A stretch of DNA of 64,000 nt from Tetradesmus obliquus (taxonomy: Eukaryota; Chlorophyta; Chlorophyceae; Sphaeropleales; Scenedesmaceae): NCBI GenBank assembly GCA_030272155.1, contig CP126202.1, forward strand, positions 2,542,001-2,606,000, written 5' to 3'. Below, in pieces: positions 2,933 to 63,885 of the stretch (its first letter is position 1; each line of letters begins with the position of its first letter). The position numbers and the translations under genes were made by a program. Below the pieces are notes generated by a model. The model was not told where the DNA came from. It made no database searches and saw nothing but the letters and a program-made list of their open reading frames with translations.

Positions 2933-5900
2933 TCACTCGATGTGCTCCACGCCTGCACCCTCGCCCATGCCAGCATCCCCGCCTGCGCCGCCGCCGCGCC
3001 GCGGCCTGTTGCGGCGCGGGCCCCGGTGCCGGCCGCCACCCCCCTCGTGGTGCTCGTAAGCAGCATCTCCCTCGCCACCCTCGCCACCTGCGCCGCCGCC
3101 ACGCCTGCCGCGGCCCCTGCCCCTGCGGCCCCTGCAAACAAACAAGCGGACAGAGAAGCTTCAAAGGCAAGATGCCAAACCCCTCGTGCTGTTTGCAGCA
3201 GCATCACCCTCGCCACCGCCGCCGCCACGCCTTCCGCGGCCCCTGCCCCTGCGGCCTCTGTGTGTAAACAACGGGGGTGACAGCAGCGTGCAGAGTGACA
3301 GGATGCTTGGAGGATGCTTGCCAGACGAATGCAGGTGCAGGATGGACAGTCAGCGGGCAAGGGCCTGGGCAGCATGCAGGTGCATGCCAATGCGTGGTGC
3401 TCGCCAGCATCGCCCTCGCCACCCTCGCCACCTGGGCCGCCGCCGCCTGCCGCGGCCCCTGCCCCTGCGGCCCCTGTAGGTACAAAAACGGGAGTGACAG
3501 CAGCGTGCAGAAAGAAAGGATGCTTGCAGGACGATCGCAGGTGCGGTATCGACAGCCAGAGGGCAAGGGCCTGGGTACCATGCATATGCATGCCAATGCG
3601 TGGTGCTCGCCAGCAGCATCTCCCCCCTCGCCGCCCTCGCCACCTGGGCCGCCCCCACGCCGGCCGCGGCACCTGCCCCTGCCCCTGCGGCCCCTGTGCA
3701 CGACCAATCGCAAACAGGTTACAAAACAACAAAACAGGCCTCAGGAAGATCCAGCCGCGGGCCCTGCCCCCGCAGCCCCTGCATACAACCGGGTTGAAAG
3801 CAGCTTACAGAGTGAGACGCTGCTTGCAGGACGTTTGCAGGTGCAGGATGCACAGCCAGGCGAGACCTGGCACGGTATGCATACACAAGTCTGCTGCATT
3901 GCAACTGCAGCTGCCGCCTCTCACCTGCCGCGCCCCCTGTAGCCCTCTCCACCGCCCTCTCCTCCCTCTGCTGCGCCCTCCTCGCCAGCTGCTCCGTTGC
4001 TGTCGCCGCCCCTGCCCCTGCCACGCCCGCGGCCCCTGCAAATGACACGCAGTGGAACGCATGCAGCACACACAAATGTTCCTCAGCACTGCCGATGCCT
4101 TGGCCATACATGCTACTGCTATTGTTGGAGCTGGTTTTAATTGCGGGCAGCAGCCGCTGCAAGCGCTTAGCCCGCAGCTGGCGCACAGCTTCTTTTGATG
4201 TGCTGCTACCATCAGCAGCCCATGTTGCTGCGCCCATGCGCAAAAAAAAACACTCGGATACACCAGCAATGTGCCCACATATGCCTGGAAGCAGCAATTC
4301 TCACACACAGCTGCACTCCAGCGGCAGCAGACTAGCAGTGGAGGTGCCACAAAAGAATATGCACTTCTGAAATTGAATACTTTGCAACTGTGCAGTGCCC
4401 ACCTGCCGCGTGGGCGCCTGGACCTGCGGTCCTCCCCAAGCTCCTCAGGGTCCAGCGGCTTCACCTGCAGAAAGTAACATGTTACATGTGTCAAATGACA
4501 TATCCTAGCAACGTTTGTATTGAGCTGGCATGCAGGTGTCCCGAAGATCCTCAGGGTCCAGCGGCTTGACCTGCAAAAAGTAACATGTACATGTGTCAAA
4601 TGACATGTTTCGGTATGCCACAAAAGTTGTAGTGAGCTATGGCGTAATTGCTTGACTGACGACACTTGTGTTGGCTGGCACGTGTGTCCAGGTGCACTAG
4701 ATATCTGCTGCTTGTACTTGCACCAGCATATTGCACGGACTGACATCAGTGCACCAGCGCTTTTCGAGGCAATGCAATGCCGCATCAGCCCACCTGGTCC
4801 TCAGGCAGTGGCGGCTGGTAGCCCACGTCGCTGCTGTCCAGCGGCTCCCGGCTCAGGATGATGGTGATGACACTGACGCGGCGCGTGGTCTCCAGCCTGC
4901 GCAGCAGCAGCAGCAGCAGCAGCAGCCGCCGAAAGTTCACTTGCTAGTTTACAACAACAACTAGTATGTGTGGATCCATGCCAACATTGGACACTCAGCG
5001 GCACAACGAGTGTGATGGTGATGACGCTGACGCGGCGCGTGGTCAACAGCCTGCAGGAGACAGACACAACGAGTTCACACGAGTCCATGTATGCAGGATG
5101 TCGGGAGGGATGGACAAGGAACGACCGGAACTTAACAAGTCCTTCGTGAAAACGACATCTGCTTTTGAATGAAAAGCGCCTCATGAACTTCGTTTGTGCA
5201 GTGAGGCGCACCTGTCCAGGCCCTCCTCCTTGGGCTCCCACACGTCCACGATGCACAACAAGCAGCAACCAAAACCCTGGACCCTTCAATCCTACATCTG
5301 CCAGTTTAAAACCGCAAACCCTGCAGCACATCACACCTGTCCAGGCCCTCCTCCTTGGGCTCCCACACGTCCACGATGTTGGTGGAGGCGATGGAGGTGA
5401 GCTGGTGCAGCCCCACCATGCGGCGCTTCAGGATCTCGGCTGCAGCACATGAAGAAAGTATGCAGACCAGCAGATAGTGTAGCTGAGACAGATCGAGTTC
5501 AATTCAAGTGTTAGAGGTGAGCTGGTGCAGCCCCACCATGCGGCGCTTCAGGATCTCGGCTGTTGACGCAGCAGCAAAAAAAAACAGTAGTTCAACAGTT
5601 TCAAGGGTCAGGCAGAAGAGGTGCGGTTGGTTGGGGTGTCTGGTAACCAGCCTGTGGAGTAAGCAGTGCAAGCTGAGCTGGTGCAGTCCCACCATGCGGT
5701 GCTGGAGCATTTTGGCTGCATGGTGCAAGCAGCAACGACAGAAAGGCCACGGATCAAATGCAGCACACGGGTTGCATGGGTGGAAAGGATCATGTTGATT
5801 GGGGTGTCAATATGCTGGATTTGGGGATGCATTGGCTTTATGGTGGCGTATGCCATTGACCATCATGCTGCAGATGGCTTTCATCACCTTGAACACCGTC

Positions 5901-7364
5901 AAACACTACCCCAAGATAACTCACCCACGACCACGGTCTTGTTGATGGCCTTGCCCATGCCCTTGAGCACCACGCTGCTGTGGCCCTTCTCCTCCAGCAG
6001 CGGCATACATAAATCAAAACAGCATCAAAAGAAACAAAAACAAGAACAAAAGGCACCGTTGCATCAGCTAAATATCACCTGCAAAACCAACAATACACAA
6101 AGAAAGCTGTGCATAGCAGCGCTCACCCACGACCACGGTCTTGTTGATGGCCTTGCCCATGCCCTTCAGCACCACGCTGCTGTGGCCCTTCTCCTCCAGC
6201 AGCGCCATCGCGTAGCTGATGTAGTTGCGCACCTTGTTCACCGCAGTGATGCGCACCTGAGCAGAAATAACACATTGTTGCAGGCAGCAGAGGCATGACA
6301 TGCCTTTGATGAGTCCTGTGTGGTAGGTGGTTTGATGCTGTGCAGGCATGTACCTTGTTCACCGCGGTGGTGCGCACCTGGTGCAGCACAGCAGGATAGC
6401 ATCCATCACAGCAGCAACGGCATAAGGTGCAGCACAGGGGGCAAGAACTGGTCTGCATATCTGGTGGATGTGGTGCGATGCCACAAGCCTTTTTCAACAC
6501 AATTATGCGCACTAAAAGCAAGCAGCACAGCACAGCACAGTTCAGCACAGCACAACACAGCAGGTGATTGGCGAGATGCAGCAGCCAAATCAGCAGAGGC
6601 ACGACTGGCCTTCAAGGACTCATCGGCAGTGGCCCAGGCAGTGTTTTTTCATCCAGGTGCGCACAACACAGGTACTAAATTGCATGCTGTTAACTATCTA
6701 ACAATGCTCGACACGAGTACACACAGTTCTCGGCATGCAGCTTCAGCTAGATAGCCAGTAGTGTGTGTGTGGCACTAAGAAACTGCAGCTGTGTGCTAAC
6801 AAGCACTGCCTGCCACGCAGCTGCTTCAGAAACCGATCCAGGGGCGTGGCTTGTGTGAAACAGGTACACACGTGTGCTGCTCTGTTCTGGTGCGCAGTAC
6901 CGGAACGGTACATGCTGCTTGGATGTCTATGTGCTGGTTTGCTCATTCGGCTGCTACACCTCCAACATCACTGTTCGACGCGGCTGTCTGTGCAGCACCA
7001 CACATAAAGTGCACTGTTTGCAGCATGATTCTGTTTGACAAGGCACGGCCTGTGCACATGTTCCGCAGACAACAGTGTCTGGAGCGGGTTGCCCGCCCAT
7101 CGCAGCTGCCAAACCTCAGTGACTGCTCAGGTACCTTTGCAACAACCAGCACCACTTGACAAAGTCAAGCGTAACAAATCTCCAATCTTTGAGAGCATAT
7201 GTGTTGCTTGATGGTCTACAAGCTGCATGATCAAGGCAGATCACAAGGTAACTTGCTGCTGTGTGCAGCAGCTGCATTGAATCCACTCACTGGGCTCAAC
7301 TCACCTCATTTTCCTGGATTTCACTGTCATTGCGCTCCTTTGGAACCCTTTTGTAGGCCTCCAT
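2933..7364 (-). CDS. Alba-domain protein with C-terminal RGG tail
   Basis: Alba-family proteins bind RNA and DNA; in plants and algae the longer RGG-tailed form works in mRNA storage and translation. Seven exons read in frame: 7305-7364, 6127-6256, 5337-5439, 4794-4896, 4403-4464, 3925-4035 and 2933-3131, giving 255 residues. The start at 7362-7364 gives MEAYKRVPKERNDSEIQENE joined to VRITAVNKVRNYISYAMALL, the conserved Alba entry. GKAINKTVVVAEILKRR, VWEPKEEGLDR and TTRRVSVITITL follow. Residues ~150-255 are Arg/Gly-rich (RGRGRGRG, GGEGGEGD), ending GVEHIE and a stop at 2933. Several exons have nearby partial copies, listed separately. Splicing one of the upstream copies of exon 7 into the message would lengthen the RGG tail, so tail length is the least certain part of the model. 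Confidence 0.9.
3190..3705 (-). repeat. Echo array of the Alba RGG exon start
   Basis: Three copies of the 5' part of Alba exon 7 (3060-3131) lie upstream of it in the intron: 3190-3263, 3399-3478 and 3612-3703. Each keeps an AG directly before a GGCCGCAGGGGC-like exon start and the Gly/Arg/Glu coding pattern. Each then runs into a similar ~130 b non-coding stretch, so the unit is ~215 b. A shorter piece at 3757-3781 may be a fourth, older copy. Confidence 0.8.
4403..5056 (-). repeat. Echo copies of Alba exon 4 and exon 5 starts
   Basis: The start of exon 5 (VKPLDPEE, edge at 4464) is repeated at about 4541-4573 as VKPLDPEDLR. The copy carries ~40 b of upstream intron: both copies are followed on the plus strand by AAGTAACATG..TGTGTCAAATGACAT. 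The start of exon 4 (LETTRRVSVITITL, edge at 4896) is repeated at about 5003-5047 as LTTRRVSVITITL. The repeated unit therefore spans the splice acceptor. Confidence 0.85.
5207..5715 (-). repeat. Echo copies of both ends of Alba exon 3
   Basis: Exon 3 is 5337-5439. Its 3' end (VDVWEPKEEGLDR plus donor) is copied downstream at 5207-5256. Its 5' end (AEILKRRMVGLHQLTS) is copied upstream at 5515-5562, nearly unchanged, and again at 5672-5716 as AKMLQHRMVGLHQLS. The farther copy is more diverged. Confidence 0.85.
5924..6381 (-). repeat. Echo copies of both ends of Alba exon 2
   Basis: The 3' half of exon 2 (6127-6205), with its donor, is copied downstream at 5924-6003 with about two base changes. 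It then breaks off into unrelated intron. The 5' end of exon 2 (VRITAVNKV) is copied upstream at 6354-6378 as VRTTAVNKV. A very short third match lies near 6655-6664. Confidence 0.85.
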
Positions 7365-11079: not shown

Positions 11080-13588
11080 TTTGTGTTTGGTGTTGATCCC
11101 TGTGATTGGTAAGGACGCCTCTGAGGCTCAAACAATCGGGGGGTGAACAGCGTGCCTGAGTGCAGCTTGAGTGTATCACGCAAATGGAAGGAAGAATACA
11201 AGGTTTGTATGTATGTGAAAGAATTCACACGCTCGACGCGACCTCTGGCAGTGAGCAGTGCCTTTATGCTCCTCACGGGCCGGTCAAGAGTGTCATGTGC
11301 ATGTGTGGCTGCAGCAGGTCAGCGCCCGGCCTCAATGCGTATCCTTGTCCAACCTTCATTCATCGCTCACAAAGCAAATTTTTTTGTATCCAAGGGACTC
11401 GCAAGCCCAGGTGCCCCGTCCCTTGCAATTAACCCAGCCACGAATCAGGTGCAGATCAGTAGAGGGCTGTCATGTGATTGTGACCGCGACCTGGGTGCGG
11501 CTTTTGGGCGCAGTGCCGACGAATGACAATGGACCAGATGTCATCAAACAACCCAATTTTAATTGAAGCCAGGAACCTCTGAGCATTACACTCTACAGCA
11601 CTGCCTTGACAGTCACTGCGGCAGACCCAGCAAGGGCAGACCCATAAGCTGCATCATCCTGCAACTGCACACAAGTGAACGAGCCCCGGCACGGTGAGCA
11701 TGCAGAAGCGCACCCACAGAAAAGCCAGCTGCATAACTTTGTCAACACAAGACACCACTGTGTTGCAGGTGCGGCAAGAGCTGCGCAGCATGCTGCAGTA
11801 AAACCCCAGGTGTCACGCTGGCTGTAGCAAAAGCACCTCAAAACGAGCAGGCACCTGCTGCTATTATGAGCCACAGCAAGCACATGGCTTGCGTCCTGCA
11901 CAACAACATGACGGCGCCGCACTGCAGCAGCGCTTGCCATCCGAGCAACACCTCGGAACACAGATGTGCTGTGCTTAGCGCACCACAGCGCAACCAAAAA
12001 GCTGCAGCTAGACTAGCTACAGGCACGACACTGACTTGCTGTGCACACGGTTCACTGTAAGCAGTGCACATACATAGCTTTTATGCTATATGCAAACTCT
12101 CTGTGAACAGCTGAAAAGCCCTTGCTGCTTCCGTCACACCCTCCAGTGCAGCCAGTGCAGCAAGAGGCACTCCCTTGCAGGCAACAAGGAACAAGCTTGC
12201 AGAAATTTGAGGTTGTGCAGTGACGTCAAGTCCTGCGCCTGGCTGACACTGCCAACGCCCAACAAGAGTAGCGCTGACCACCCCTATAGTGCAGCGGGCC
12301 CATTGCATGCAATGCCTGCCGACTCTATTGCATGCCAGTGTGCCGAGTGTGCAGCTGTGCAACTCTACACATGCCAGGCATAGGCAAGCAAGCCCTCTCA
12401 CACTCGCCCTACTTGCCACCACAAGGTGCTACAGCCCATAGCACAGCTGCTGACAATGCACATGTGTCAAAAACAGCAGCGCTGTTTGTCGGACTCAGCA
12501 GACAGACATTACCCTCGGCCCATAGGATGGCATCTGTGCCATGGGATCTGTCAGCACACAGCAGCTCTTGCACTGCTGGTGTTGCAATCTTCTCTTCAAG
12601 CTGCTCTCTCTGCAGAGCACGCTTTCCGCGTTACCAACTCCACACGATCATGCTGTACATCAGTCCCCGCCCCAAACACACACGCCCTAGCTATCCGTCG
12701 CTCCCTGAAGCCAGTCACAAACACCCAGCAGGTAGCTACCAGCATGCTGCTGCACAGCACAGAAAAGCAGAGTCAATCAAATGCCTGAATCTCGCAGCGC
12801 CAACAAACAAACAACGCACAGGCATTGTGCGCCTGGCAGCGAGTCAAATTGCAGTGAGCTACAACTGGTGCTATGACACAACCGCTTGCAGGAACAATCT
12901 GCCGGCTGCAGAATTTGGCACAGACTGCAGTAAGCAGGCCAAACGCACCTAAGCAGCCCGTCATGCTGCTAGCTGCTGCTGCAGCTGCATACAGAAAGAG
13001 TGTTGCTGCAGCCAGTGCACCTGTAACTGCCGCTGCTGCTGCCGGGCTGCAGCTGCATCCATCAGATTGGGGCACTGCTTGCTGCCTGTGGCCTGAGCAG
13101 CTGCGAGGTGCACTTAACCACTAGCAGGAGCTGCTGCAGCTGCAACTCGAGCTGCTGCAGTGCTGCTGCTGTTGCTGCAGTGCTGCTGCTGCTGCTGTGG
13201 CGGTCGATGCAACAGCCACACCTGCGACGGCAGCTGCAGCCGCCGGCCTTACTGCTGCTGCGATCATCACAGCTGCCGCACAACATCAGCGGCCATCACC
13301 AGATGCACCAGAAGGCTTGCTGTGATGCTGCCCGCCGCGGCCTGCCCCCGGGGCTGGGCCAGCCGCACTGCTTCTGCTGGTGTGCTGACGTCATCTGCAG
13401 CTGCAGATGTCTGGTGCTACAGCGCTGGCGCAGCAGCAGCCATCACTCAAGGGTCGCAGGCAGCACACAGCAGCAGCAAAGACAGCCGTACCCCTAGATT
13501 TAACGGTCACAGGCAGGCCATCGATAGAAGCCAAGAGGGTGACCGTGGGGTGCCGCCGCCGCCGCAGCAGCAGAAACAGCTGCGCCGC
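11080..13588. other. Intergenic, 2.5 kb, no gene recognised
   Basis: This lies between the start of the plastid protein gene and the stop of the P450 gene, both leftward. Long open frames exist, for example plus-strand 12332-12952, but they show no domain-like sequence and are dominated by Cys, His and Ser from GC/CA-rich DNA. CTG/CAG-rich DNA runs from 12960 to 13460. Confidence 0.4.
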
Positions 13589-14140
13589 TCACTCGATGGT
13601 CACAGGCAGGCCATCAATAGAAGCCACCGGGATCACCGTGGGGTGCCGCTGCCCTGGGTCTGCCAGCTTTGAGGCGAGCTTGAAGCTGAATCGCTGCTGC
13701 AGCAGCGCCAGCACCACGCGGGCCTCCAGCAGCGCCAGGTGCTGCCCCAGGCAGTTGCGCGGGCCCTGCAATGCACGCAGACGTGTCGGCGGTGTCAATA
13801 GTTTTGAGTTTGATTGTGCATTACACAGGCTGCTAGCAGCGCGAGGTGCTGCCCCAGGCAGTTGTGCGGGCCCTGCGACCACCAAATCGTTGCAGAACCA
13901 CAGATGCAGGGAGGTGTCAGTGGTCTGCGACTGAATGGTTGGCAAATAAATGGTTGATGTGCACCATCAACTGGTGGATTCCCCATGCGCCTGCCACCTG
14001 AGCAGGGCAGTGCAGCTGCTGTTTATTTTCGACTATGAAGCACAAGCAACACGCAAACCTGTACACAAGTGGATGAAGGGCACAGACATGTAGGGCCGCA
14101 CGCTCTCCTCAAAGCAGTCGAACTCGCCGCCAGGCACGAT
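13499..14140 (-). repeat. Echo copies around P450 exons 6 and 7
   Basis: The last ~55 b of exon 7 around DGLPVT, near the stop, are copied downstream at about 13502-13556. The start of exon 7 (GPRNCLGQHLALL with its acceptor) is copied upstream at 13834-13880 as GPHNCLGQHLALL. The end of exon 6 (GGEFDCFEEGVRPYMFVPFI) is copied downstream at about 14059-14136, with several changes. Confidence 0.82.
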
Positions 14141-17100
14141 CAAGTCTCACATAGAATGTGATGCACATGTTGCCGAAAAAAAAGAAATAGAAGGCAGGTA
14201 AGCAAGCTGTACACACCTGGATGAAGGGCACAAACATGTAGGGCCGCACGCCCTCCTCAAAGCAGTCAAACTCGCCGCCGGGCATGAAGCGCTCCGGGCG
14301 GAATGCTGTTGGCTCGCTCCACTGGTTGTGCACGCCCTGCAGGACAGTCAAACACCACTTTCAGTTGTGTTCATGAGGGACTCCCGATGGGGACTACAAA
14401 GTCAAAAGGTATGCTGCTTTGCCATACCAAGGACACCGCCTTGCAGAAGGTGTACAGGGCAGCGCCGCCAGCAGCAGCATTGAAGAAAGATGTTCTGCTG
14501 TACCAAAGCAGCCCCATGCGCATGGCTATGCCTTTGTTTTTTATTCTCTTTGCTAACAATAATCCATTGCCTGACACATGCTTGAATCTTTTTTAAGTCA
14601 TTTGTTCCCGCAGCTTGCCGCCCACTTCCTCACCTGCAGGTGGCACACGATCATGGTGCCAGCTGGCACTGCCTTGCCCTCCAGCTGGTCGTCCTCCTTG
14701 AGCGTGCGCGTCACCACAGGCACCACGCTGTACCTGTTAGTCAAACATGTGACAGATAACAAGTAACATGGTGGTTAACACTGATTGATAACATGATGTG
14801 GTTGACAATGATTGATGACATGATCAATGACACTGATGCAGCGTGTTTACTTCAATTTACAGAAGACTGTGCGGGTGCTAGAATGGGTGATGTTGGCTGT
14901 GTTTGCAGGAAGCTGTGTTTGCAGGAGGATGGCAGCAGCAGGTGCCATGCACCGCCGCCACCACCAACAGCAGACGTGAGGTGCGACAAGCTAGACAATC
15001 CAGCACATAACAACGCTAGCAGCAGCAGCAGCAGCAGCAGCAGCGCACCTGCGCAGCGCCTCCTTGAGCACGCTGAGTGTGTAGACCATGCCGTCTGCTG
15101 CTGGGCGGGTCGCGGTGTTGCTGCCAGAGGGGCCAAACACGCGCACCGCTTCCTCAAGCACCTGCAGGAAACCACAGCAGCAGCAGCAGCAGCAGCGCGA
15201 GGGGACGTCAGGCAGCTGTGCTACAATTCCTCAACGCACTGATGTCACCTGCGCCAAAGTAAGCGCTTTACGTACGGCTGCATCTGCTCACACCAGTAAC
15301 GCTGACATGCTGCCCATATGCCGCAAGCCTCATATCTGCATTGCTGTTGCCTGTGAAGTGCACACCAAGCAAGCCGCGCACCTGATCCCGCTGCTGCGGG
15401 TGCCTGCTGAGCTCGTACGCGCTCCACATGAGCAACGCTGTTGAGAGCCACAGCAAACATGCCGTCTGTCAACATTGCCCTGTCAACATTATCCGAACTG
15501 CGCACCTTGTCCCGCTGCTGCGGGTGCCTGCTGAGCTCGTACACGCTCCACATGAGCATGGCGGCGCTGGTCTCGTGGCCAGCCAGCAGGAAGGTCTTCA
15601 TCTCGTAGCACAGCTGCGTCTCGATGGCTGCAGACCACTTGGTGCCCGCGGCCTGCAGCGAGCAAGCAGCACAAAGCGTGGTATGGATGTGAGAATGCCC
15701 AATCATCTGATTACACAGCTGCGTCTCGATGGCTGCAGACCACTTGGTGCCTGCTGCCTGCACAGCACAGAAAAGAACACAGCACATGGCCGCAGGAGAG
15801 TGAGGCAGCAGCAGGGGTCAAGGCAACAGCGGGTGTCAAGGCAGCAGCCGGAAGGTCTTCATCTCGTAGCACAGCTGCGTCTCGATGGCTGCAGACCACT
15901 TGGTGCCCGCGGCCTGCAACAAGTAAGCAGGACAGAGCACATTTTGATGTAAGACGGACGCTTCAGTGCATAGCACAGCTGCGTCTCCGTGGCTGCAACC
16001 TAGGCCAGCAGCAGGTTGCCTACAGTTGAGTGCGCGAAGGAGGGCACACAATGCAGTCGCACCCGCAGCCTACCACACCAACCCATCAGCACGCACAAGC
16101 CTTCCTACGCGTATCCAAACAGCAAGCCTTCTACACCATAACATAACACAGAGCCAGCTGCGTGTCTCACCTCGATGGCTGCCAGGATGCGGTCCAGAAT
16201 GTCGCCCCTGCCAGGCTTGCCCGCCTGCCGCGCCTGCCACCGCGCCCTGATCAGGTTCGTGAGGAAGCTGTTGAGCCGCGCAAACACCTAACGGCCAAGC
16301 AACAACAGCTGCCGTCCCCGCTCTTGAAGCACTGCGAGCACCACCCCCGCACACGCAAGCCTCCTTGAACCAGCCCTCTTTACAAGCCGCCGATCTACCC
16401 TTGCAACGCACCCCAACTCACCTCGATCGCAGCCAAAATGCGGTCCAAGATGTCGCCCCGGCCTGGCTTGCCCGCCTGCCGCGCCTGCCACCGCGCCCTG
16501 ATCAAGTTTGTGAGGAAGCTGTTCAGCCGTGCCATGCGCCACTTGAAGGCAAACCAGGCCGGGCTGGGCAGGTACTTGCGGTGCGGGCGCAGCACGCGCT
16601 TGTTGCCCTCCTCCATCACTGGCAGGTACAGCTGCGGGAACACCTGTGTTTTTGAAATGAAAAGTGACAAAATGACAAAAAAAGAGGCAGGCAGTGCAGC
16701 TGGTGGTGAGTAGAGGCAGAGTAGCAGGACAGGAGTGTGAGGCGGGCAGAGCAGCGCGCGCTTGTTGCCCTCCTTCATGACTGGCAGGTACAGCTGCGGG
16801 AACACCTGCGATCCATATTCATATACAATCAGATATACTACAGATAAAGAGGGATGCAGGGTAGTTGCAGGCGTGCTGCCAATTTGACATGACAGCACAG
16901 CAGTGCCAGCCTAACACAGCTTGCTGCTGCTGCTGCTGCTGCTGCTGCTTTTACTGCTGCACCATGCTGCTGCTACTAATGCTGCTGCTGCTGCTGGGTA
17001 GCACAAGTACGTGCTGCCTGTGCTGTACTGCGGCAGCACCATTGAGCGTCATGCTGGCACGCCTGTGCCTGCATGCTGTGGCGCTGCTGTTCCAAATGCA

Positions 17101-21463: not shown

Positions 21464-21494
<31 letters not shown>

Positions 21495-21632: not shown

Positions 21633-22300
21633 GTGCTAATCACCAGTCAGCTTTGAGTTACAGCTCTAGGTTGGCCAGTTTGTCCATCACCAGGGTAACA
21701 GCCTGGACAACAGCCTGGACAAAGCCTGGAAATGATGCAGGGCCTGATCAGGAAGAAGCTGAATTGAACCATTTTGTCTAAAGATGACGTTTCAGCTTCT
21801 GTTGTTGATGGATGATGTAACGGCCTGGCCACGACATGTTGGTGGGCGTAGTCAGCAGGAAGCTGAACTGATTGAACAATGCGCTACTTCTTCTAGCATA
21901 ACAGCCGCAGCCTGCGGCCAGTGGTAGTGCAAGGCGAGGTACACGTTGGCACCCAACTTTCACGATAATGGTGAAAACCGTTGGTGGCCAAAGGCGTTAC
22001 ACCCATGAGACTAGCTAGCAGTCCTGGAGCATTGGCGTGCACTGCATACCATGGGCAGGGCACGTCACGTGACACCCTGCAACCTTTTGCACACCTGCAA
22101 GGCAAGTGCATGCTTGTACATGCTCCCCCTGGTCACCATAAAAGTGCACACCCAGTTTCTCCTGTATCACCCACGGCTTGCAGCCGCTTGAGGCCACCGC
22201 GCGCAGCGCTGCTAGCATGCTGGCAGCAGACGCACCAGGTTGTCGCACCCATAATATTGCCTAATGGTTGTGTTGACCAACAAAGGCATCACTCTGCTTC
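21633..22300. other. Biotin ligase 3' flank with echo copies of its last exon end
   Basis: The end of the coding region (AGCCTCGACATGATGCAGG... to the stop) is repeated after the stop at about 21690-21767, where GATGCAGGGCCTGATCAGGA recurs and is followed by a TGA. It recurs more faintly at 21846-21872. The stretch also contains the likely poly(A) signal and, from ~22085, the oldest copy of the oxidoreductase last-exon array. Confidence 0.75.
21816..21820 (+). terminator. Possible TGTAA poly(A) signal of biotin ligase
   Basis: TGTAA is the usual polyadenylation signal in green algae. This one lies ~185 b after the stop, a plausible 3' UTR length. No cleavage site can be seen from sequence. 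Confidence 0.4.
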
Positions 22301-23290
22301 TGCTTTCCTCGCCACCTGGAAGGCGAAGTGCATGCCGAAGCTCTCCTGCGTGACGCCGGCTGACGTCACCGCACGCTGCATGCTGGCAGCAGACGCACCA
22401 GGTTGTCGCACCCATAGTGTTGCCTGATAATGGTCAGCCAACAAAGGCGTCACTCACCCTTTTTCCGCGCCACTTGGAAGGCGAAGTGCATGCCGAAGCT
22501 CTCCTGCGTGACGCCGGCTGACGTCATCGCACGCTGCATGCTGGCAGCAGACGCACCAGGTTGTCGCACCCATAGTGTTGCCTGATACTGGTCAGCCAAC
22601 AAAGGCGTCACTCATCTTTTTTTCGCGCCACTTGGAAGGCGAAGTGCATGCCGAAGCTCTCCTGCGTGACGCCGGCTGACGTCATCGCACGCTGCATGCT
22701 GGCAGCAGACGCACCAGGTTGTCGCACCCATAGCGTTGCCTGATAATGGTCAGCCAAAAAAAGGCGTTACTCTGCTTCCTTTCGCGCCACTTGGAAGGCG
22801 AAGTGCATGCCGAAGCTCTCCTGCGTGACGCCGGCTGACGTCATCGCACGCTGCATGCTGGCAGCAGACGCACCAAGTTGTTGCACCCATGATATTGCCT
22901 GATAATGGTCAGCCAAGAAAACAAGAAGGCGTCACTCTGCTTCCTTTTGCGCCACTTGGAAGGCGAAGTGCATGCCGAAGGTCTCCTGTATGATGCCGGC
23001 TGAGGGCACCACACCGTGTGGTAGTATTCAAGCAATCCAACTCAAGCAGCGGCGCTGCATGCTGGCAGCAGACGCACCAAGTCGTCGCACCCATGATATT
23101 GCCTGATAATGGTCAGCCAAGAAAACAGAAAGGCGTCACTCTGCTTCGTTTCGAGCCACCTGGAAGGCAAAGTGCATGCTGAAGCTCTCCTGCGTGCAGC
23201 CGGCTGACGTCACCGCACGCTGCATGCTGGCAGCAGACACACCAGGTTGTCGCACCCGTAGTGTTGCCTGATAATGGTCAGCCAAAAAAG
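22085..23290 (-). repeat. ~158 b tandem array of oxidoreductase last exon end
   Basis: The end of the last exon (sense strand FTQESFGMHFAFQV) recurs downstream of its own stop. On the plus strand the marker GGAAGGCGAAGTGCATGCCG or close variants begins at 22318, 22476, 22634, 22793, 22958 and 23162, against 23320 in the gene. A much older copy lies at ~22085-22255. Spacing is 158, 158, 159, 165, 204 and 158 b. Each unit also carries CAGCAGACGCACCAGGTTGT or a variant, followed by TGCCTGATAATGGTCAGCCA. Copies do not form one open frame. Confidence 0.93.
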
Positions 23291-23293: not shown

Positions 23294-25566
<2,273 letters not shown>

Positions 25567-30400: not shown

Positions 30401-30404
30401 ACTT

Positions 30405-33316: not shown

Positions 33317-33392
<76 letters not shown>

Positions 33393-44127: not shown

Positions 44128-44163
<36 letters not shown>

Positions 44164-46648: not shown

Positions 46649-48698
46649 TTAAGGGTGGCGGGAGGGCACGCGCCACAGCTTCTTGTTAATAACAACGATG
46701 TCGCTGTCAGTGACGTACTTCAGGAAGTCGCGCACAGCGCCCTTGCGAGCAGCCTTGCCCAGAGCCTCATACGACTCCCAGGCGCTGTAGGACACAAAGA
46801 CGGTGTTGTCGCCTGCAGCAGAATAACAGTTAAGGAAAAGAATAACATTGCATCAAGCCTTTGCGAGCGGCCTTGCCGAGCGCTTCGTAGGACTCCCAGG
46901 CGCTGTAGGAGACGAATACCGTGTTCTCACCTGCAAACATAACATGCAGAACAGTAATTTTTGTTGCGGGCATAAACAAATAAACCTGTGCCGAGCGCCT
47001 CCAGCCCCGGCACTGTAGGAGACAAACACTATGCAGCCAGCTGTGGGAAAACCCAGAGGTTAGATGTTGAGCAGGCATGATGACAATGGGTGCATGCAGG
47101 AGCCAGCAGGGCAAGGGGCAACCCGCCCTCCAACCCTAGGCACACCAGTGCAAGAAAAAGCTGCCACCGGCGGTGAATACACATCAAGCAACATGCCGCA
47201 CCTGCAGGCTTCTTCAGCACCAGGGCCAGCTTGCCCGTGGCGTCCTCCAGGGCCTCTGCCACCTTGTCACCATCGTAACATGACACATATTTTGATAGGA
47301 AAACACAGAATCACATACATATCAACATGCAGCACATGCAGGCTGGTGGTTCAGCACCAGGGGCAGCTTGCCCCTACTGTCCTCCAGCGCCTTGACCATG
47401 CAGGCACCAACGCAACATGACACAACTGCAAACATGACACAACTTCAAACATGACACAACTTCAAACATGACACACAAAGTCACATGCACGATAACATGA
47501 CGCACCTGCTGGCTTGTTCAGCACCAGCGCCAGCTTGCCCTCGGCGTCCTCCAGACCCTCTTCTGACCAGGCACCAACGTAACATAACATGATGATAAAT
47601 AAGTAACATAATGATGATTGAATAGTAACATAATGATGATTCAAAAGTAACATAAGGAATTAACTTAGTATAATGCCGCACCTGCCGGCTTGCTGAGCAC
47701 CAGGGCCAGCTTGCCCTTTGCATCCTCCAGGGCCTCAGCCATCTTGCCAAATGCCTTGATGAAGTCACGGCCGTCACCTGGCAGCAGCAGCAGCAGCACG
47801 AGATGGTGTAAGCAAAAGGTTACCAGGCCAATGAGCAGGCGCGTCTGGTAGCGCATCTTACCAGATGCCTAGATGTCACGGCGCCACCTGGCAGCAGCAG
47901 CAGCAAGAGTTGGCTGGTACTGCCATACCACAAACAAAAACAGCAGCAGCAGCAGCAAGAGGGGCACAGCACACCACAGCGTGGGTCAAGGACCCACCAC
48001 AAACGAGGACAAACGCAAACTGCATCCAAAAAGGTGCCCACAAGGAGGCACGATCACGAGGAGGAACGATGTACTTGTAAAGAGCCAGCCTCACGGGCCA
48101 TCCGCGCTTCTTTTTGTCCTCAGCACCAGCTCCAGCAGCAGCAGCAACAAAACATGTCTTAACTTTCATCAACTTTCATCATTAACTTTCATCAACCGTA
48201 GCAATGCGTAACACTCACGAGGAGGCACGATGTACTTGGTGACCAGCCTCACAGGCCATCCGCGCTTCTTGTTGTCATCAGCGCCACCAGCAGCAGCAGC
48301 AGCGAAGGGCGTGGCCGCCAGGTCAGCGCCCGCAGCATCACCAACTTCATACAACAGCAGCACTTGCCACACACCACCGACACAAGCAGCAGCAGAGCAG
48401 CAGCACCAGCAGGAGGGGAACACAACACCATGGCACACTGCTAGCCACAAACCACACGCAACAAAACACAATGCTGGTTCTGTAAATTACTCACGAGGCG
48501 GCACGATGTACTTGGTGACCAGCCTCACAGGCCATCCGCGCTTCTTGTTGTCATCAGCGCCAGCAGCAGCAGCAGCAGCGAAGGGCGTGGCCGCCAGGTC
48601 TGCGCCCGCAGCATCATCAGCTGTGAAGCAGTCAGCGCCATTGGCGTTGGCGCCGTTCTCATCCTTCTTGCAGTCCTTGCAGTGGCAGCCGTGGATCT

Positions 48699-48729
<31 letters not shown>

Positions 48730-50029: not shown

Positions 50030-50060
<31 letters not shown>

Positions 50061-53617: not shown

Positions 53618-55994
53618 TTAACCAAAGAAAGGGAACGCTATACTGCTGCGCCCAGTTGCAACAGCAGAACCGCCGCGGCCGCCACCACTAGCAGCAGCAG
53701 CGCCGCCACGGCTGCCACCACTAGCAGCAGCAGCAGCAGCAGGTTGGCACAGCTCTGGGGCTGTCAGTTGTGCTGTTGTTCCTGAAGGCAGGCGCACGGC
53801 AAATGGCATCAGGCTTGGGGATTCCTGGCTGTGGCCTGTCCATGCCTCTCCATCCATGAAGGAGTGCGTCACCTTGGAAACAGTGCCTGCAGGAGACACG
53901 GCAGAGCAGCAGTAGCTGTGCGTGAGGCGGTGATCGAGGCAGGGCAACAGATTGCCATCAGGTGCTTGAGCTGCTGCATGCAAGCTGGTGCATGCAAGCT
54001 GATGTATGTGGCTGGTGCATGTGGCTGGTAACAATTTTATTTGGATTATTCATGAATAGCACGATGACGCAGCGATGCGTGAACCAGCCGCCAGAGCATC
54101 GGCGATTGCCAGCAGCTTCACACAACGAAAGAAGCCTTATACACCTGAGTTTTGACTTTTGAACAGTGAAGGGTATACCACCCAAACGTCAAAACCGTTG
54201 TTATGAGATTTCTTATGAGCTTCAATGGCTTGCATGCATGCAACTGATGAACTTGTGTGTCAACAATCTTTCAGTGCAATATGCTGTCCTACAAAGCTGC
54301 ACAGCTTTGATGTTCCCATGGCCAGAACCCTAGGCACAAGCCCACCATGGTGCTTGCTCACCTGACGCAGTGCTGGCGCAGACCTTTGTTGTTAGCCTGC
54401 CCATCGGCTTGGCCTTGAAAGCCTTCTGAGAAGTAGAAAATGCCGCCACGTCAGCATACTCCGTTTTGCCGATGTTGTCGTCGATCGGCAGCTGCACTGA
54501 TGCAATGCATCCAGCAGCATCTTGCACGAATGCCGATACCAGCTGCATGCCTTTGCTCTGAAGCGGCCGTGGGAGTGGCACGTCTGCCATCTTTGCTTCA
54601 AAGATGAGCTTGTTGCTTTTGTTATCTTTGACGCTGACTTTGACCCAGCCGGGGCCTGTTGACCAGTCAAAGGTAGCCAGCTCCTGCAGGAGACACGTGT
54701 GACAGCACACTTGAAATTCCAAAACAGGGATGTGCCATCGCGTTTACAACGCATCAGTGTCAACACCGCCTGCAACCTTACGTGTCCGTGTCCTTGGCCG
54801 CACTCCTGCTGCTGTTTATGCTGCTGCTCGCGTCCACTACCGACAGCGTCTAGTTGCTGTGCGCCATCCCAGCAGTGACACATAAGGTTCTACCTTACTG
54901 CAGAAGCACGCTTGCCGGACAACATAGCAGCTGCCGATCACGTTGGGGAGGCCCCAGATGTTCCTGCCAACAACACAGCAAAAACGCAGAAAGCAAGCGG
55001 CAAGCAGCAGAAAAGCAGCAAGAAAGCAGCCTTGCCTCACCTTGGGCATGCCCCAGATGTTCCTGCCAGCTCGCTGAGAGAAGGGAGAGTCTACCCAAAT
55101 ACGCGCCACATGCTGCAGCCCATCACCGCCGCAATCGGCTGCAGTGTCATACTTGCCAGGGCTGCATGTGTGCAGTAGACAGCAGGCAGAGCAGCACAGG
55201 TGGTAGTGGTTAGTGTCACGTGGATCACACATACGCGCAACATACTGCAGGCCATCCACGCCGCAATCTGCTGCAGTGTTTCAACCCTCCAAGGCTGTGT
55301 GTGTATGTGTGCAGCAGAGAGCAGGCGGGGCAGCACAGGTGGCAGTGGTTAGGGTCACGTGGATCTCACATACGCGCAACATGCTGCAGCCCATCCACGC
55401 CGCAATCTGCCGCAGTGTTTAAACCTTCCAGGGCTGTGTGTGTGCAGCAGACAGCAGGCGGGGCAGCACAGGTGGCAGTGGTGAGTGTCACGTGGATCAC
55501 ACATATGCGCAACATGCTGCAGCCCATCCACGCCGCAATCTGCTGCAGTGTGGTGCCTTCCATGGTTGCATGTATACAGCGGGCAGCGGGCAGACAGGCA
55601 CAGGTGATGATAATGAGTGCACATGCAACACACATTGCAGATGCGTGCAACATGCTGCAGCCCCTCCAAGCAGCAGTCTGCAGCCGTGTTGAACTAACAG
55701 GGCTGCGAAACATTGTTTTTGAATATCAGAACAAACTGGTGGAGTGAGACCGGTGATTTTCAGGTGGATGGTCAATGCAGGGGCATGTGGGACACAAGTG
55801 CTGTGCAGCGTCAATGGTATCAAGTACAGGGGCAAGCTGCACGGGCAGTGCTGCAGCCTGTACAGCCTGATGATAAGAATGAATTTACACATCCTCCGAG
55901 TCCTCACGGACCGCAGATGTGCGTCGCTGCTGCTGTCATAGAAGGACATCTGGATGTATTGGATGAGGCAGCTTGCTGTGTAGCTAGTAGCTGC

Positions 55995-56045
<51 letters not shown>

Positions 56046-57990: not shown

Positions 57991-58024
<34 letters not shown>

Positions 58025-59014
58025 GCCGCGCTGCGCTGCTGCTGCCACACACCAATCACCTGTGCCTCTGCCGTGCAATGCTCTCTCCTCCATGCAGTGC
58101 GCTGCGCTTTCCTGGGTCCTGTGTGGCGGTGCTGCTGTACATTGTGGTGGCAGTCACGGCAGCGCCAGACAACCACGTGGGCACACGCATCTTCATCAGC
58201 GGGTTCATGCTGGGGCCCATGTGGCTGGCCATAAGCATCGGGGCAATCGTGGTGAGCAACTGTGGTGTGTGCTCAGTGCTAGTGATAAGGCTGTGCAGCA
58301 GCAGCGGCGGCGGAGGCAGCGGATTCATGCTTGGGCCCATGTGGCTGGCGATCAGCATCGGAGCAGTAGTGGTGAGTACTACAGCACGTACAGTAGCAGC
58401 AGCAGCTATTTCTATATTAGGCACAGCAGCAGCAGCAGCAGCAGCAGCATCTTCATCAGCGGCTTCATGCTGGGGCCCATGTGGCTGGCCATAAGCATTG
58501 GGGCAATTGTGGTGAGTAGCACAGCACGTACAGTAGCAGCAGCAGCTAGTTCTATATTATGCACAGCAGCAGCAGCAGCAGCAGCAGCAGCATCTTCATC
58601 AGCGGGTTCATGCTGGGGCCCATGTGGCTGGCCATAAGCATCGGGGCAATTGTGGCGAGTGGTTTACTCAACCAGTACATTAAGGTGTGCAGCAGCAGCA
58701 GCAGCGGCGGCGGCGGCGGCTTCGTGTTGGGGCCCATGTGGCTGTCTGTCTCTGTTGGAGCAATCGTGGTGAGTAGTTTAGCCTGTACAGCAGCAGCAGC
58801 AGCAGCAGCACCTAGTACTACAGCCTGTACAGCGGCAGCAGCAACAGCAGCGGCTTCATGCTTGGGCCCATGTGGCTGGCAATCAGCATCGGGGGGATTG
58901 TGGTGAGTACTTTACTCAATAGGAAAATCACGGTGTGCAGCAGCAGCGGCAGCGGCGGCGGCTTCATGCCGATGAGGCTGATGGGCGCAGGCGCGATGTG
59001 ATGAGCGGCTGTGG

Positions 59015-59046
<32 letters not shown>

Positions 59047-60279
59047 GGTGTCGGCGGCAGCAGCAGTGTCGGCGGCAGCAGCAGCGGTGGCGGCGGCAGC
59101 AGCAGCAGCAGCAGCGGATGCTGGAGCCAATGTGACTGGCCACATCTAGTGGAGCTACTGTGGCAAGTAGCAGCACAGCTGGCAGCAGCAATGGTAGCAG
59201 CAGCGGCAGCAGCAACTGTTGCGCTTCATTGCTCAGCCCCCCACTAGGTCAACACCCTGTGCTGTGCTGCCGCTGCAGCTGATGTGCAGGCCACAATCGC
59301 CAAGCTGATGCCCACCTCTGAGGCCCACATGGCAATGCTGTGTATGCTGGGACTGCTGGCAATTGAATGGTTGCTATCGCTGCTGCCGCTGCTGCTGCTG
59401 CCACTGCCGCTGCCGCTGCTGTTGCTGCTGCTCTTGCAGGAATTGCTTGCCACATCCTGCTGAGCTATCCCTTGTGTCATGCCATGATGTCAGCCTCTGC
59501 TGCATCTCCATATGCTGTTGCACTGCTGCACATCTTGATTTATGTGCAGGCCACCATCGCCAAGCTGATGCCCACCCCTGAGGCCCACATGGCAGTGCTG
59601 TGCGTACTGGGCCCACTTGCAGTTGTGCCTTTTGCTATTGTGCGTGTGGGCACAGGACACCTCTACCTGTGGGCGATGGGCATGATATCAGCGCTGTATG
59701 TCGGAATGCCAATCATTGCAGGTGCGCCGCACTGCCACTGTTGATTCGGTGTGTTATCCATACATTACTACACATCAAGGTCACAGCGTATCCATGCACT
59801 GTCTATGCGTGACTGCATCACGCCCAGATTATGAAAAAAAATGCCGTGACGAATTGTGCTTGTTTGACCGACACCTCTGGCTGCATGCTGGCCAAGCTTG
59901 CATCAACACATGGCTGTGAGCTGTAGCGAATTGTTATTGAGCATAGCACCCACATCATGAACCTTGGACTGGCGGTGCGGCGCATGCTGCGTGCTGTTTG
60001 AGCAGGCCCGAGTGCAGTTGCTTGCAGCTGTCTGGCTTGCGTGTAGGCAAGCAGTTGCTGCTGCTAATGCGACGCATGCAAAGTCTTCAACCTTCAGCCT
60101 GCTGCTGCTGCTCAACATGCTGCGCTGCCACAGGAATCCGACTGTTCAGCGGTACGCTTCAATGTGCTGCTGCTGCTGTTGCCGCCGCCATCTGCTGTGT
60201 ATGCTGCACTGCCGCCTGCAGGATACAAGCTGCCCACCGTGGCACAGCTGTGGATGCTGGCGGTTCTTCAAGCTTCAAC

Positions 60280-60313
<34 letters not shown>

Positions 60314-62400
60314 ACGCTGCTGCTGCTGTGTGCTGCGCTGCCGCTTGCAGGATATCAGCTGGCTACTGTGGCGCAGCTGTGGATGCTGGTTGTGTTCGTC
60401 ATCATTGCAGCGCTGGTGGCAATGTTTGCTGGCTCGTTTCTGTCCATGCTGGTGCTGCCTTCCCTGGCCTCACACAAGGTGAGTGTTATGTAACATGTTA
60501 TGTAACATGTTAAACATTGTTACTGGGTGTTACATACCGGTGGTGCTAGGGGTGCTTTCTGACCGTCTTGCAGCAATCTCTGCACGAATGGTGCATACTG
60601 CCGAATTCCTTGTTGTCCCTTGTTGTCCCTTCCCGCTTTTTTGGAAAGGTGCAGGCAGTGAGCACCTCAATGGTTGCTTTTATTGATACACATGTCAATT
60701 GATGCCCTGCAGCTTGAAGACGAGGTGTCACTAGCGCTGCGCCAGCTGGGCCACCACCTGACACGACTTCAACGTGTTGCTGTTTCTTCCCTTTTCTGCC
60801 CTGCAGCTCGAAGATGAAGTGTCACTGGCGCTGCGCCGGCTGGGCCACCACCTGACATGGCTTCAACGTGTTGCTGTTCCTTCTGTTTTCTGCCCTGCAG
60901 CTCGAAGATGAAGTGTCACTCGCGCTGCGCCAGCTGGGCCACCACCTGACAGCCACTACCTCACACCTGTTCAGGGCCCAGGCAGCATCTGCTGCCGAGC
61001 TGCTGCCAGGGCACCTTCAGGGCATTCACCCGCTGCTGCTGCAAGACTCGGCTCCTACAGCCTTGGCACCTGGACTGCTGGAGACAGAGACGTTAGGGCA
61101 GGTGGGTGAAAGCGCTAATGCTGTTTGTGACCTGGCAGAGTTGAAACAGAACTAGCATGTGTCTCGTGGGTGAACTGAACCAGTGACTGGTATTGCACAG
61201 TGCAGCCCGCGCTGCACCGCAGCAGTTGTGTAGCGCCAGCAGAACCTGTTTTTGTGGCCAGCTTTGCTGCTCTTGTTGCGGTGTTATCTCAGCTGCCTGA
61301 AGCTATAACTTCTCTGCATTTTTATTTATGCATGCCGCTGCTCACTGTGCTGTGTGGCCTGCAGCATGCGGTGCATGATGTGTATGTGGCGCTCATGGAC
61401 TGGTTTGAGCGGCAGAGCAGGCCGCCTGCGCAGCAGCAGAAGTCAGCGCCCAGCATTATGTGCGGGCGCAGGTCAGGCGTCAGCTCAGAGTCAGGCAGCA
61501 CGATTGTCAAGAGCACTTTCTACGGCGCAGATGCTGCAGGTAACCTTGTCAATGTGTTGACCAGACAAGGTTTGACTGGTTGTGCTTGGCTTTCTGAGAC
61601 GCTTGTACTTCTTTGTGACAGACGGACGAGCATACAGCACGGTGTCTTGCTTGCTTTTTGCGTGGCAGCTCTTCCCCACACAGGTGTTTTCCTGTCACTT
61701 AATGATGCGTTGATTGCTGGTTGCCTTGACTACATGTTGAGTGCACCTGCTGCAGATGTGCCCCAGTGCGACTGCACAAGTGTGCTGCCATTTTGGGCCT
61801 GTGTTGCTGCTTGCAGGACTCGCATGTTTGGCCTGCTGTATAAGGCTGCTTCTGTGACAAGTTCTGTCAGCTTCCCTCCATTTGCAACATAACCTACTTG
61901 TGCTGCCATTCTGTGCCTGTGTTGCTGGTTGCAGGACTCGCAGCAGCTGTAGCAGCAGCAGCAGCCGACTCCTTTGTTGGCTGGAGTGATGCTGAGCCCG
62001 ACGAGTATGACATGGATTCAAACGAGCGTAACATGGGCGCGACAGCTGGCACTGCAGCAGCAGCCGATGCAGATGTTCCTGCAAGCAGCAGAGGCGAGTC
62101 AAAGCAGTCAAACTCTGGAAGGCAGCAGCGGAGCAGCTTGCGCCTGCGACAATCAAGCACACAAGCAGATGATACATCAGCAGCTGCTGCTGCAGATGAG
62201 CCTGAGGAGCAGCAGCAAGATCAGCAGCGGTCAGACACGCGGTCAAACACAGAAGCGCCAACGCTGCACTCGCTGTGCTCTGTGACAGACCGCAGCAGCA
62301 AATGCAACAGTGGAGAGCTTCCTAGGGGCTTGAGGCTGGGGTCCAGCAAAGCAGCTGCTTCTTTTGTTGCAGTACAGCTGAAGCGCGCAGCATCTGGCGC

Positions 62401-62434
<34 letters not shown>

Positions 62435-62847: not shown

Positions 62848-62878
<31 letters not shown>

Positions 62879-63725
62879 ATCTTGCAGCTGCTGGCGCATG
62901 CCGGGCTGCTGCTGGATGCTGCTGCTGCTGAGCCGCAGTGGCTGCGGGGCTCTGAGCGGCGATTTGAGAGCAGCAAGTGGGCTGGCGTCATCGCTGCAGC
63001 GCAGCTACTGGCCACAAGGTGTGCATGATGCAGCAGTAGCGGCTGCCTGCATCAGGCGATAAGGCACCAAGTGATGCAGTGTTCGACCTGTCCCCAGGGC
63101 ACCAAGTTTCAGGTCTCGTGACTGCAAGCAGCAACACAAGTGGCATGTTCATCCTGCTCCTGCTGCTGCTGTTGCTTCTCTGCGGGTCCTACCCTGCTAC
63201 ACGCAGGCTGTCTGCACTCGACCTGGTGCAGCAGGATCACAGCACTGCACCTTGCCTTAATGTCCCACTGCTGCTGCTGCTGCAGGCTGTCTGCACTCGA
63301 CCTGGTGCAGCAGCATCACTGTGCGCTGCTAGAAGAGGCCGGCGCTGTCTCCCTCTCCGGTGACATGACGCAGCTGCTGCTGCTGCTGCCGCTGCTGCCC
63401 TTGACGTGATGTGCAGGACTCTGTTTGAGCTATATGCATACAGATAGTACTTTTCAAGGTGGGTAGCATTCAGATCCTCCTGCTGCTGCTGCTGCTGTGC
63501 GGTTCTTTCCTTGCTACATGCAGGCTGTCTGCACTCGACCTGGTGCAGCAGGATCACTGTGCCCTACTGGAAGAGGCTGGCGCTGTCTCCCTCACTGGTG
63601 ACATGACGCAGCTGCTGCAGGCGCTGTATGCTGCTGCTGCCGCTGCGCTGGCGATGCTGTCTGAGCAGGCTGGAGACAGGAGCAGCAGGGCGCAGGGCTG
63701 CAGGGCGGCGCTCACTGTGCTGCAG
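57365..63725 (+). CDS. FUSC/ALMT-like multi-span membrane protein (partial, runs off right edge)
   Basis: Nine exons join in frame: 57365-57501, 58098-58251, 59550-59721, 60351-60478, 60901-61101, 61365-61539, 61935-62608, 62888-63018 and 63524-63725. They give 658 residues with no stop yet, so the gene continues past 64000. The N-terminal half holds about six hydrophobic spans, including GAMQLTMGILFVSLFVFV, FMLGPMWLAISIGAIV, WAMGMISALYVGMPIIAG and LVVFVIIAALVAMFAGSFLS. LEDEVSLALRQLGHHL and HAVHDVYVALMDWFER follow, the amphipathic region typical of FUSC and aluminium-activated-malate-transporter-like proteins. A long Ala/Ser/Gln-rich cytosolic insert sits in exon 7. Transport of an organic anion across plasma or vacuolar membrane is a family-based guess. 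Splicing near exon 2 is uncertain because five near-copies of its end lie downstream. Confidence 0.78.
57965..58910 (+). repeat. Echo copies of FUSC-like exon 2, both ends
   Basis: End of exon 2 (FMLGPMWLAISIGAIV plus GTGAG donor): the marker GGGCCCATGTGGCTG lies in the exon at about 58214 and recurs at about 58335, 58472, 58616, 58732 and 58865, ~116-144 b apart. Several copies keep the preceding ATCTTCATCAGCGG and the donor. The third continues as GLLNQYIK before its own GT. Start of exon 2: one decayed copy at about 57966-57995 (CGCTTCCCACGCTCCTGTGT). Confidence 0.93.
59275..60862 (+). repeat. Echo copies of FUSC-like exon 3, 4 and 5 starts
   Basis: Exon 3 start (ATIAKLMPTPEAHMAVLCVL, edge 59550) is copied upstream at about 59283-59360 as ATIAKLMPTSEAHMAMLCML. 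Exon 4 start (GYQLATVAQLWML, edge 60351) is copied at about 60221-60262 as GYKLPTVAQLWML. Exon 5 start (LEDEVSLALRQLGHHLT, edge 60901) is copied at 60713-60762 and 60807-60858, each after a CCTGCAG acceptor, ~94 b apart. Confidence 0.92.
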
Positions 63726-63885
63726 GTGCGTCAGATCAGCAGTTGGTGCTTGCTGGTGCTTGACTAGTGGGCAGTTGGTGCTTGCTAGTGCTCTGAGTAG
63801 TGGGCAGGCAGCATGCAGGGTGCAGGGCTGCAGGGCGGCGCTCACTGTGCTGCAGGTGCGGCAGATCAGCAGTTGGTGCTTGCAG
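61795..63885 (+). repeat. Echo copies around FUSC-like exons 7 and 9
   Basis: The acceptor edge of exon 7 (TTGCAGGACTCGCA at 61929) is copied with ~35 b of intron at about 61797-61829. Exon 9 start (LSALDLVQQDHCALLEEAGA, edge 63524) is copied upstream at about 63205-63242 (short) and 63287-63390 (long, through GDMTQLL). Exon 9 end (CRAALTVLQ plus ~30 b of intron, edge 63725) is copied downstream at about 63817-63884. Confidence 0.9.

Follow-up and report, generated by a model that had tools for sequence, protein, structure and literature searches.

Internal or tandem duplication of gene segments (Rogers 1989; Gao & Lynch 2009, cited in PMC4974935) is a local process that yields direct copies; its units may carry splice signals and give rise to a new intron or an altered exon. 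PMC4974935 describes a tandem duplication carrying a branch site, a pyrimidine tract and a 3' splice site in a potato gene, with an 83-base (b) duplication in the first intron. Here, we report on copies of exon edges, termed echoes, in a 64-kb stretch of the genome of the green alga Tetradesmus obliquus (contig 12, CP126202.1, positions 2542001-2606000; the window) and in further loci of the same genome. Echoes share with internal duplications a local and direct nature (0 of 24 inverted local matches were of the exon/intron kind, versus 154 direct matches), and young copies arise away from exon borders as well (8 border-spanning and 7 intron-only events, small numbers). In contrast to the described cases, echoes stay inside an existing intron. 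On balance, they are probably relics of border-spanning local tandem duplications, the exon halves of which have outlived the intron halves. A dedicated process of border copying need not be invoked.

In intron gain by AGGT tandem duplication, one copy supplies the GT and the other the AG of a newly formed intron, whereas echoes adjoin existing borders. No consistent donor or acceptor was seen at the truncated end in ten echo stretches read by eye. Tandemly duplicated, mutually exclusive exons are neighbouring exon copies with an excess of synonymous differences. Both copies of such exons have an acceptor, a donor and a reading frame, while most echoes are truncated, with a single border, and do not preserve the frame; the few whole-exon duplicates that exist were outside this comparison. 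Templated insertions of end-joining repair are short local copies near their source, among which inverted copies are expected too. Echoes are also local, but none of the 24 inverted local matches joins exon and intron. Introners (see PMC9860276) resemble echoes in that they change intron content on a large scale in some lineages. They are, however, dispersed elements, with many near-identical copies at unrelated loci, and create introns at new sites, while the two echoes searched genome-wide match only their own locus and sit in existing introns. Titles and abstract openings in one literature library contained no such pattern; the topics covered were splice-site duplication, partial duplications of exons or fragments of them within introns, and tandem duplication with introns in green algae.

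Prevalence and direction of exon-edge echoes

The sample consisted of the window and 30 further 10-kb loci, whose positions on 14 of the 17 contigs had been fixed in advance; together they cover 364 kb out of 104.66 Mb. Genes were predicted by a small model self-trained on these 364 kb, which is imperfect and is based on the DNA of one species without RNA. It uses simple-repeat masking and fixed length penalties, and replaced an earlier training that had drifted to tiny CAG-rich exons. The model learned the donor CAG/GTGAG and the acceptor TGCAG/G (the slash marks the border) and placed 432 introns with a median length of 281 b. Pfam recognised 7 of the 10 window proteins tested; the oxidoreductase and the FUSC-like protein had no Pfam match and carry the names given in the original prediction, which was made from the window sequence. 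The P450 of the window is 99% identical to an annotated T. obliquus protein. Its gene model is backed by the annotated protein P0001 and by sequences of three relatives (transcript-derived, judging by their source names), aligned to the exons over most of their length. The errors found in this model were one spurious mini-exon of 12 nucleotides (nt), one echo called an exon, and one acceptor placed some 15 nt off.

Self-comparison of the window, with CTG/CAG-type matches removed, revealed 90 local direct-repeat matches less than 3 kb apart. Their clusters occur in at least nine genes: Alba, P450, biotin ligase, oxidoreductase, FKBP, histidine phosphatase, ABM, ADC, and FUSC-like. The repeats of exon edges that had been noticed in the window were thus confirmed, and the spacings given for them hold approximately (94-101 b in FKBP, mostly 158-165 b in the oxidoreductase, 132-139 b in ADC, and 120-143 b in the FUSC-like gene). 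In the window and the loci together, local direct repeats formed 154 clusters, of which 145 lie within genes: 126 mixed exon/non-exon (a class that takes in whole-exon copies besides edge copies), 10 wholly intronic, and 9 at least 95% exonic. Among the 119 non-redundant copies that lie outside exons and have a partly exonic partner, 85 show one clear border.

The direction of copying agrees well with the original prediction, which placed copies of exon starts upstream and copies of exon ends downstream. Namely, 44/44 non-redundant acceptor-edge copies lie upstream and 39/41 donor-edge copies lie downstream (83/85 overall); both exceptions are CTG-rich matches at 44.1-44.5 kb of the window. 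The redundant list of 154 matches gave 58/58 and 51/53, respectively. A looser scan, with the partner aligned up to 12 nt from the border, gave 75 upstream and 17 downstream copies for acceptors, and 79 downstream and 7 upstream copies for donors. Many echoes share arrays, so that tests on them overstate independence.

Echoes were detected in 26 of the 61 genes with at least three exons, including 7 of the 9 such genes in the window, and in 18 of the 31 loci (the window and the 30 others). They accompany 36/440 acceptors and 35/440 donors (about 8%). Of 372 internal exons, 12 have echoes of both their edges, while independence predicts about 3. The window is richer in echoes than the sampled loci (35 non-redundant echoes in 64 kb versus 50 in 300 kb). 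Repeats cover 207 of 782 borders, versus 118 ± 11 after circular shifts; this null is too easy because it includes intergenic sequence, where repeats are scarcer (6%) than in introns and exons (18%). The statement that farther copies are often more diverged survives as a weak tendency only (26 pairs for, 16 against, 2 ties).

Chance similarity, low-complexity sequence or an artefact of the assembly analysed here would find support in the abundance of CTG/CAG repeats in the genome. These explanations are very improbable: simple repeats were masked, and chance accounts for about 3 of the 154 matches (272 cross-locus exon-to-intron matches, scaled from an 86-fold area). The constancy of direction, the occurrence of several echoes per border at regular steps, and the spread over 18 loci also speak against them. 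The echo repeats are real, directional and present beyond the window.

Border bias and the fate of intron flanks

Uniform duplication followed by protein-preserving selection and neutral decay was simulated and read with the same detection, whole-exon units being left out. The intron-only share in the simulation was 54, 50, 54, 36, 32, 14, 0, and 0% with increasing age (about 45% when pooled), and 43% (252/587) with a higher indel rate. Against this 43-45%, wholly intronic clusters make up 10 of 145 in the real data. The bias toward borders is real. It is absent from short units: repeats spaced 15-49 b comprise 10 intron-only, 7 exon-interior, 2 intergenic, and 1 border cases. The numbers of border or mixed versus intron-only cases, the latter including echo-to-echo pairs, are 57/16 at 77-129 b, 30/10 at 130-199 b, and 39/12 at 200-400 b.

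A bias of this kind may reflect more births at borders or better survival there. To measure both classes alike, this comparison took age from the non-exon columns alone, at least 30 of which were required, at a spacing of 77-320 b. Young duplications, with at least 90% identity on these columns, included 8 border-spanning and 7 intron-only events, and uniform birth predicts 39% border-spanning events among the eligible ones (280/722 simulated). There were 3 border-spanning and 2 intron-only events at 85-90% identity, and 33 and 2, respectively, among diverged ones (below 85%; three echo-to-echo pairs set aside). On these small numbers, duplications across a border seem to be born not much more often than others, but to remain visible much more often. 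The original prediction is thus supported in part: the centring on borders holds in the window and in the sample (126 mixed and 10 wholly intronic clusters out of 145), but the claim that ordinary tandem duplication cannot produce it is not supported.

The intron flanks retain traces of the same origin. Homology between the linker and the outer flank, in diverged tandem register, was found in 24 of 54 echoes with sharp ends and in 16/16 of the others, versus 6.4% in a mismatched-pair control. A tandem relic was present in 9 of the 17 sharp echoes with an exon identity of at least 93%. The contiguous-unit test, which cuts the linker and the flank at the border itself, gave z > 3 for 40/70 echoes at d <= 300; a relic count made without this cut and limit gave 23/68. 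A good part of the echoes were probably born as a contiguous duplication, the intron half of which has since decayed.

The intron flank, assessed at about 6-35 nt from the border, can still be recognised in 2/12 echoes with an exon identity of at least 97%, 4/15 at 93-97%, 4/28 at 88-93%, and 8/30 below. For neutral tandem duplication, the expected share of recognisable flanks varies with the indel rate; it is 97-100% where exon identity is about 97%, and 90-97% where it is about 93%. Neutral tandem duplication alone is rejected by these sharp ends and by the codon-level ratio given below, and a higher indel rate does not rescue it. Copying from spliced RNA was rejected as well, since only 2 of 81 echoes were joined to the neighbouring exon, as expected of a spliced junction, with z > 3.

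Codon-level decay and possible mechanisms

The coding parts of 85 echoes differ from their exons by 218 synonymous and 186 non-synonymous changes. The ratio of non-synonymous to synonymous differences per site (pN/pS) is 0.29 (bootstrap 0.23-0.36), while at least 0.48, or 0.49 with context-dependent rates, is expected for a neutral copy facing a constrained exon. Mutation spectrum and CpG effects were accordingly rejected as reasons for this excess of synonymous differences: with them taken into account, the expected ratio does not fall below 0.48-0.49. The ratio is lowest in the most similar echoes (0.16 versus 0.30 and 0.31 in the rest). Synonymous and non-synonymous counts are more uneven between echoes than expected (chi-square P = 0.014), so a mixture is possible. 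In the 32 echoes with alignable introns, divergence was 0.174 in introns, 0.207 at synonymous sites, and 0.053 at non-synonymous sites, the last value being about half of the neutral-copy expectation. Two echoes, at 46857 (11 synonymous/1 non-synonymous) and 33646 (10/0), are strongly synonymous and have no other match in the genome. A paralogous donor was rejected for both, since the genome-wide search matched their own locus only.

An origin by unequal exchange between divergent alleles or haplotypes could give such figures, with synonymous differences and unrelated introns present from birth. The low pN/pS, particularly in the most similar echoes, the overall similarity of intron and synonymous divergence, and the lack of a paralogous donor for the two echoes searched are consistent with it. 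This explanation needs a neutral allele divergence estimated at about 0.1 or more, which is unusually high. It also fits poorly with the echoes 5334-5378 and L015:1471-1508 (a sampled locus), both picked for exon identity, where identical exon parts adjoin clearly diverged intron parts. Allelic exchange is improbable as the source of the echoes.

Some echoes might instead be used as alternative exons or splice sites and be conserved as coding sequence. The overall ratio of 0.29, the almost exclusively synonymous changes at 46857 and 33646 (the latter with a stop codon kept), the unevenness between echoes, by which a subset may be in use, and the retention of the acceptor AG in 71/75 cases point in this direction. 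The features of most echoes point away from it: 85 of 119 copies have a single clear border, 20 of 26 indels are not multiples of three, and stop codons (6 among 404 differences) are about as frequent as the 8 or so expected. Also, the annotated P450 protein and the sequences of its three relatives hold the echoed segments once. Coding use is a quite improbable explanation of the pattern. Two related ideas were dropped upon inspection by eye: recursive splicing, because many echoes do not have a donor-like exon start, and in-frame retention of the unit, because spacings are not concentrated on multiples of three.

The reading that we prefer, border-spanning tandem duplication with unequal survival, may be outlined as follows. 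Ordinary local tandem duplications, with spacings of at least 79 b (median 148 b, multi-step copies counted), would by chance span an exon border, and appear, on small numbers, to arise about equally often inside introns and across borders. A border-spanning duplication would be tolerated only if the copy adjoining the remainder of the exon is still the one used in splicing, as the geometry implies. Exon-start copies lie upstream and exon-end copies downstream because an intact protein needs the last copy to be the real start and the first copy to be the real end. The intron halves would then lose similarity by substitutions and indels, as in the 24 sharp echoes mentioned above. The exon halves would stay recognisable, presumably through selection on the real exon together with the slow change of the echo at amino-acid-changing sites that is seen statistically. 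The slowing is most likely due to recurrent exchange or contraction between the echo and the real exon, by which damage in an echo would pass into exons. The regular arrays could be the product of unequal exchange between the two at a later stage, and each event would lengthen an intron. The frame of duplication and unequal survival is shown in part; exchange or contraction is the likeliest cause of the slow decay. Our more far-reaching idea, that untranslated intronic echoes are under coding-type purifying selection through exchange with, or collapse onto, the real exon, so that a damaged echo is a latent mutation, is tentative and rather doubtful.

A number of observations weigh against this reading. 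Of the 12 echoes with an exon identity of at least 97%, 10 have a sharp end at the splice site, versus 0-3% expected under neutral tandem duplication, and 30 of the 54 sharp echoes have no tandem relic. Judged on whole-match identity of at least 95%, with redundancy kept, there are 34 border versus 3 intron-only matches, many of the 34 being short, exon-delimited echoes. The comparison of births comprises only 15 events, and its border class includes whole-exon duplications. Homogenisation is not demonstrated because synonymous sites of the 32 echoes are on average no more similar than introns; when these echoes are split by exon identity, the values are 0.089 and 0.300 against 0.181 and 0.168, a split conditioned on the outcome. 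Echo indels do not preserve the frame (20 of 26 break it, 6 being multiples of three), and splice-site retention (AG 71/75, GT 59/79) is not clearly above neutral, with 130/154 retained versus 85% computed for a neutral copy. A gradient of constraint away from the border, as predicted by exchange, was not seen, nor was the mosaic pattern of partial conversion tracts (55 echoes, Kolmogorov-Smirnov P = 0.36).

Part of these data would suit a border-specific process that copies the splice site with a short exon stretch into the neighbouring intron, echoes being delimited by the exon at birth. The sharp ends at high exon identity, the 34 to 3 ratio, the distinct spacing class (57 to 16 at 77-129 b versus 1 to 10 at 15-49 b) and the deficit of intron-only clusters (10/145 versus 43-45% under uniform duplication) are in line with such a process. 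The diverged tandem relics in 24/54 sharp echoes, and in 9/17 at an exon identity of at least 93%, are not, and neither are the nearly uniform births on non-exon columns and the absence of inverted exon/intron copies. There is also no sign of spliced-RNA junctions (z > 3 in 2/81). Border-specific copying seems unlikely.

If border-spanning duplication with unequal survival is correct, protein-neutral duplications across exon borders are a simple route of intron growth. According to Table 1 of PMC5966456, T. obliquus has a mean intron length of 462 b, the longest of five green algae. Echo-bearing introns (n = 66) have a median length of 518 b versus 255 b for the other 374, with the caveat that echoes also find more space in longer introns. 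Apparently untranslated echoes decay slowly at amino-acid-changing sites, an oddity that could bring to light selection acting by way of recombination. If exchange-coupled selection is true, its reach extends to sequence that the mRNA never contains, and scales with exchange rate and population size. Echoes are also a warning for gene finders, as our own model called a P450 echo an exon.

Echoes in individual genes

The Alba gene (minus strand) has a real exon at 5337-5439, supported by the gene model, the Pfam Alba match and alignment, both edges of which are echoed. The echo of its start at 5514-5562 (minus) consists of cag plus 46 nt and is identical at 49/49 positions, with an intron flank that is not alignable; alignment revealed a second, more diverged echo of this start (84%) at 5671-5720 (minus). 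The echo of its end at 5209-5253 (minus) consists of 42 nt plus gtg and is identical at 45/45 positions, and the intron beyond it retains a diverged tandem relic. Nearby, on the same strand, a young contiguous border duplication at 4539-4606 covers about 36 nt of intron and 32 nt of the start of exon 4433-4501, and an echo at 5013-5054 matches the exon start at 4859-4900 with 93% identity.

All echoes of the P450 gene listed here are on the minus strand. Exon 13593-13765 has an echo of its start at 13835-13876, a segment found once in the annotated protein, and an echo of its end at 13470-13560. The end of exon 14217-14336 is echoed at 14056-14139 (90%), and the start of exon 15506-15652 at 15845-15997, with 1 mismatch in 69 exon nt and a diverged intron part. 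A long echo at 16166-16281 repeats the end of exon 16422-16631 (model borders) and encodes the same peptide; the segment occurs once in the annotated P450 protein and in the sequences of the three relatives. The start of this exon is echoed at 16742-16808, where the intron match proper is limited to 'cag', since VFPQ belongs to the coding sequence in P0001.

In the biotin-ligase gene (plus strand), an array at 20074-20374 contains echoes of the end of exon 19906-20049 at steps of 92, 122, and 108 b. The repeat array beside oxidoreductase exon 23318-23401 (22215-23216, minus strand) has steps mostly of 158-165 b, and several of its units were called candidate exons by the model. The FKBP gene (plus strand) carries an array of exon-start echoes at 32858-33355, before the exon at 33400, with steps of 94-101 b; one unit holds a long C run at 33126-33148, and (CTG)n tracts precede the acceptor in several units. 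The end of its last exon is copied at 33646-33741 (plus), with 10 synonymous differences, none non-synonymous, and with TAG in place of the exon's stop codon TGA, and again at 33755-33814 (plus). Both of these copies, within 33515-33814, are downstream of the stop codon of the gene.

An array at 36838-37413 (minus strand) echoes the start of histidine-phosphatase exon 36462-36660; this gene has a paralog on contig 8 at 1146079-1147118, with exons 64-67% identical. The echo at 46857-46935 (minus), with its 11 synonymous and 1 non-synonymous differences, derives from the start of an ABM-gene exon. The array upstream of ADC exon 55041-55161 lies at 55228-55705 (minus), with steps of 132-139 b, and the array of exon-end echoes in the FUSC-like gene at 58317-58914 (plus). 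Further echoes on the plus strand are located at 59282-59365 (exon start at 59550), 60703-60857 (two echoes of the exon start at 60901, in steps of 94 b including the linker), and 63203-63240 (exon start at 63286, 97%).

Duplications of entire or almost entire exons occur beside edge echoes at window positions 5920-6208, 48213-48622, and 63281-63641. A very young array at L020:5798-6157 consists of about ten units of 29/34 b, near-identical copies of an exon end and its donor. A tandem duplication of 1.4 kb with 100% identity is located inside a predicted intron at L003:4889-7684 and is perhaps a recent transposon or segment duplication. Outside predicted genes, L008:1-1135 is a tandem array with a 191-b unit, and the intergenic tandem duplication at 29478-30410 of the window has a 476-b unit and 85% identity.

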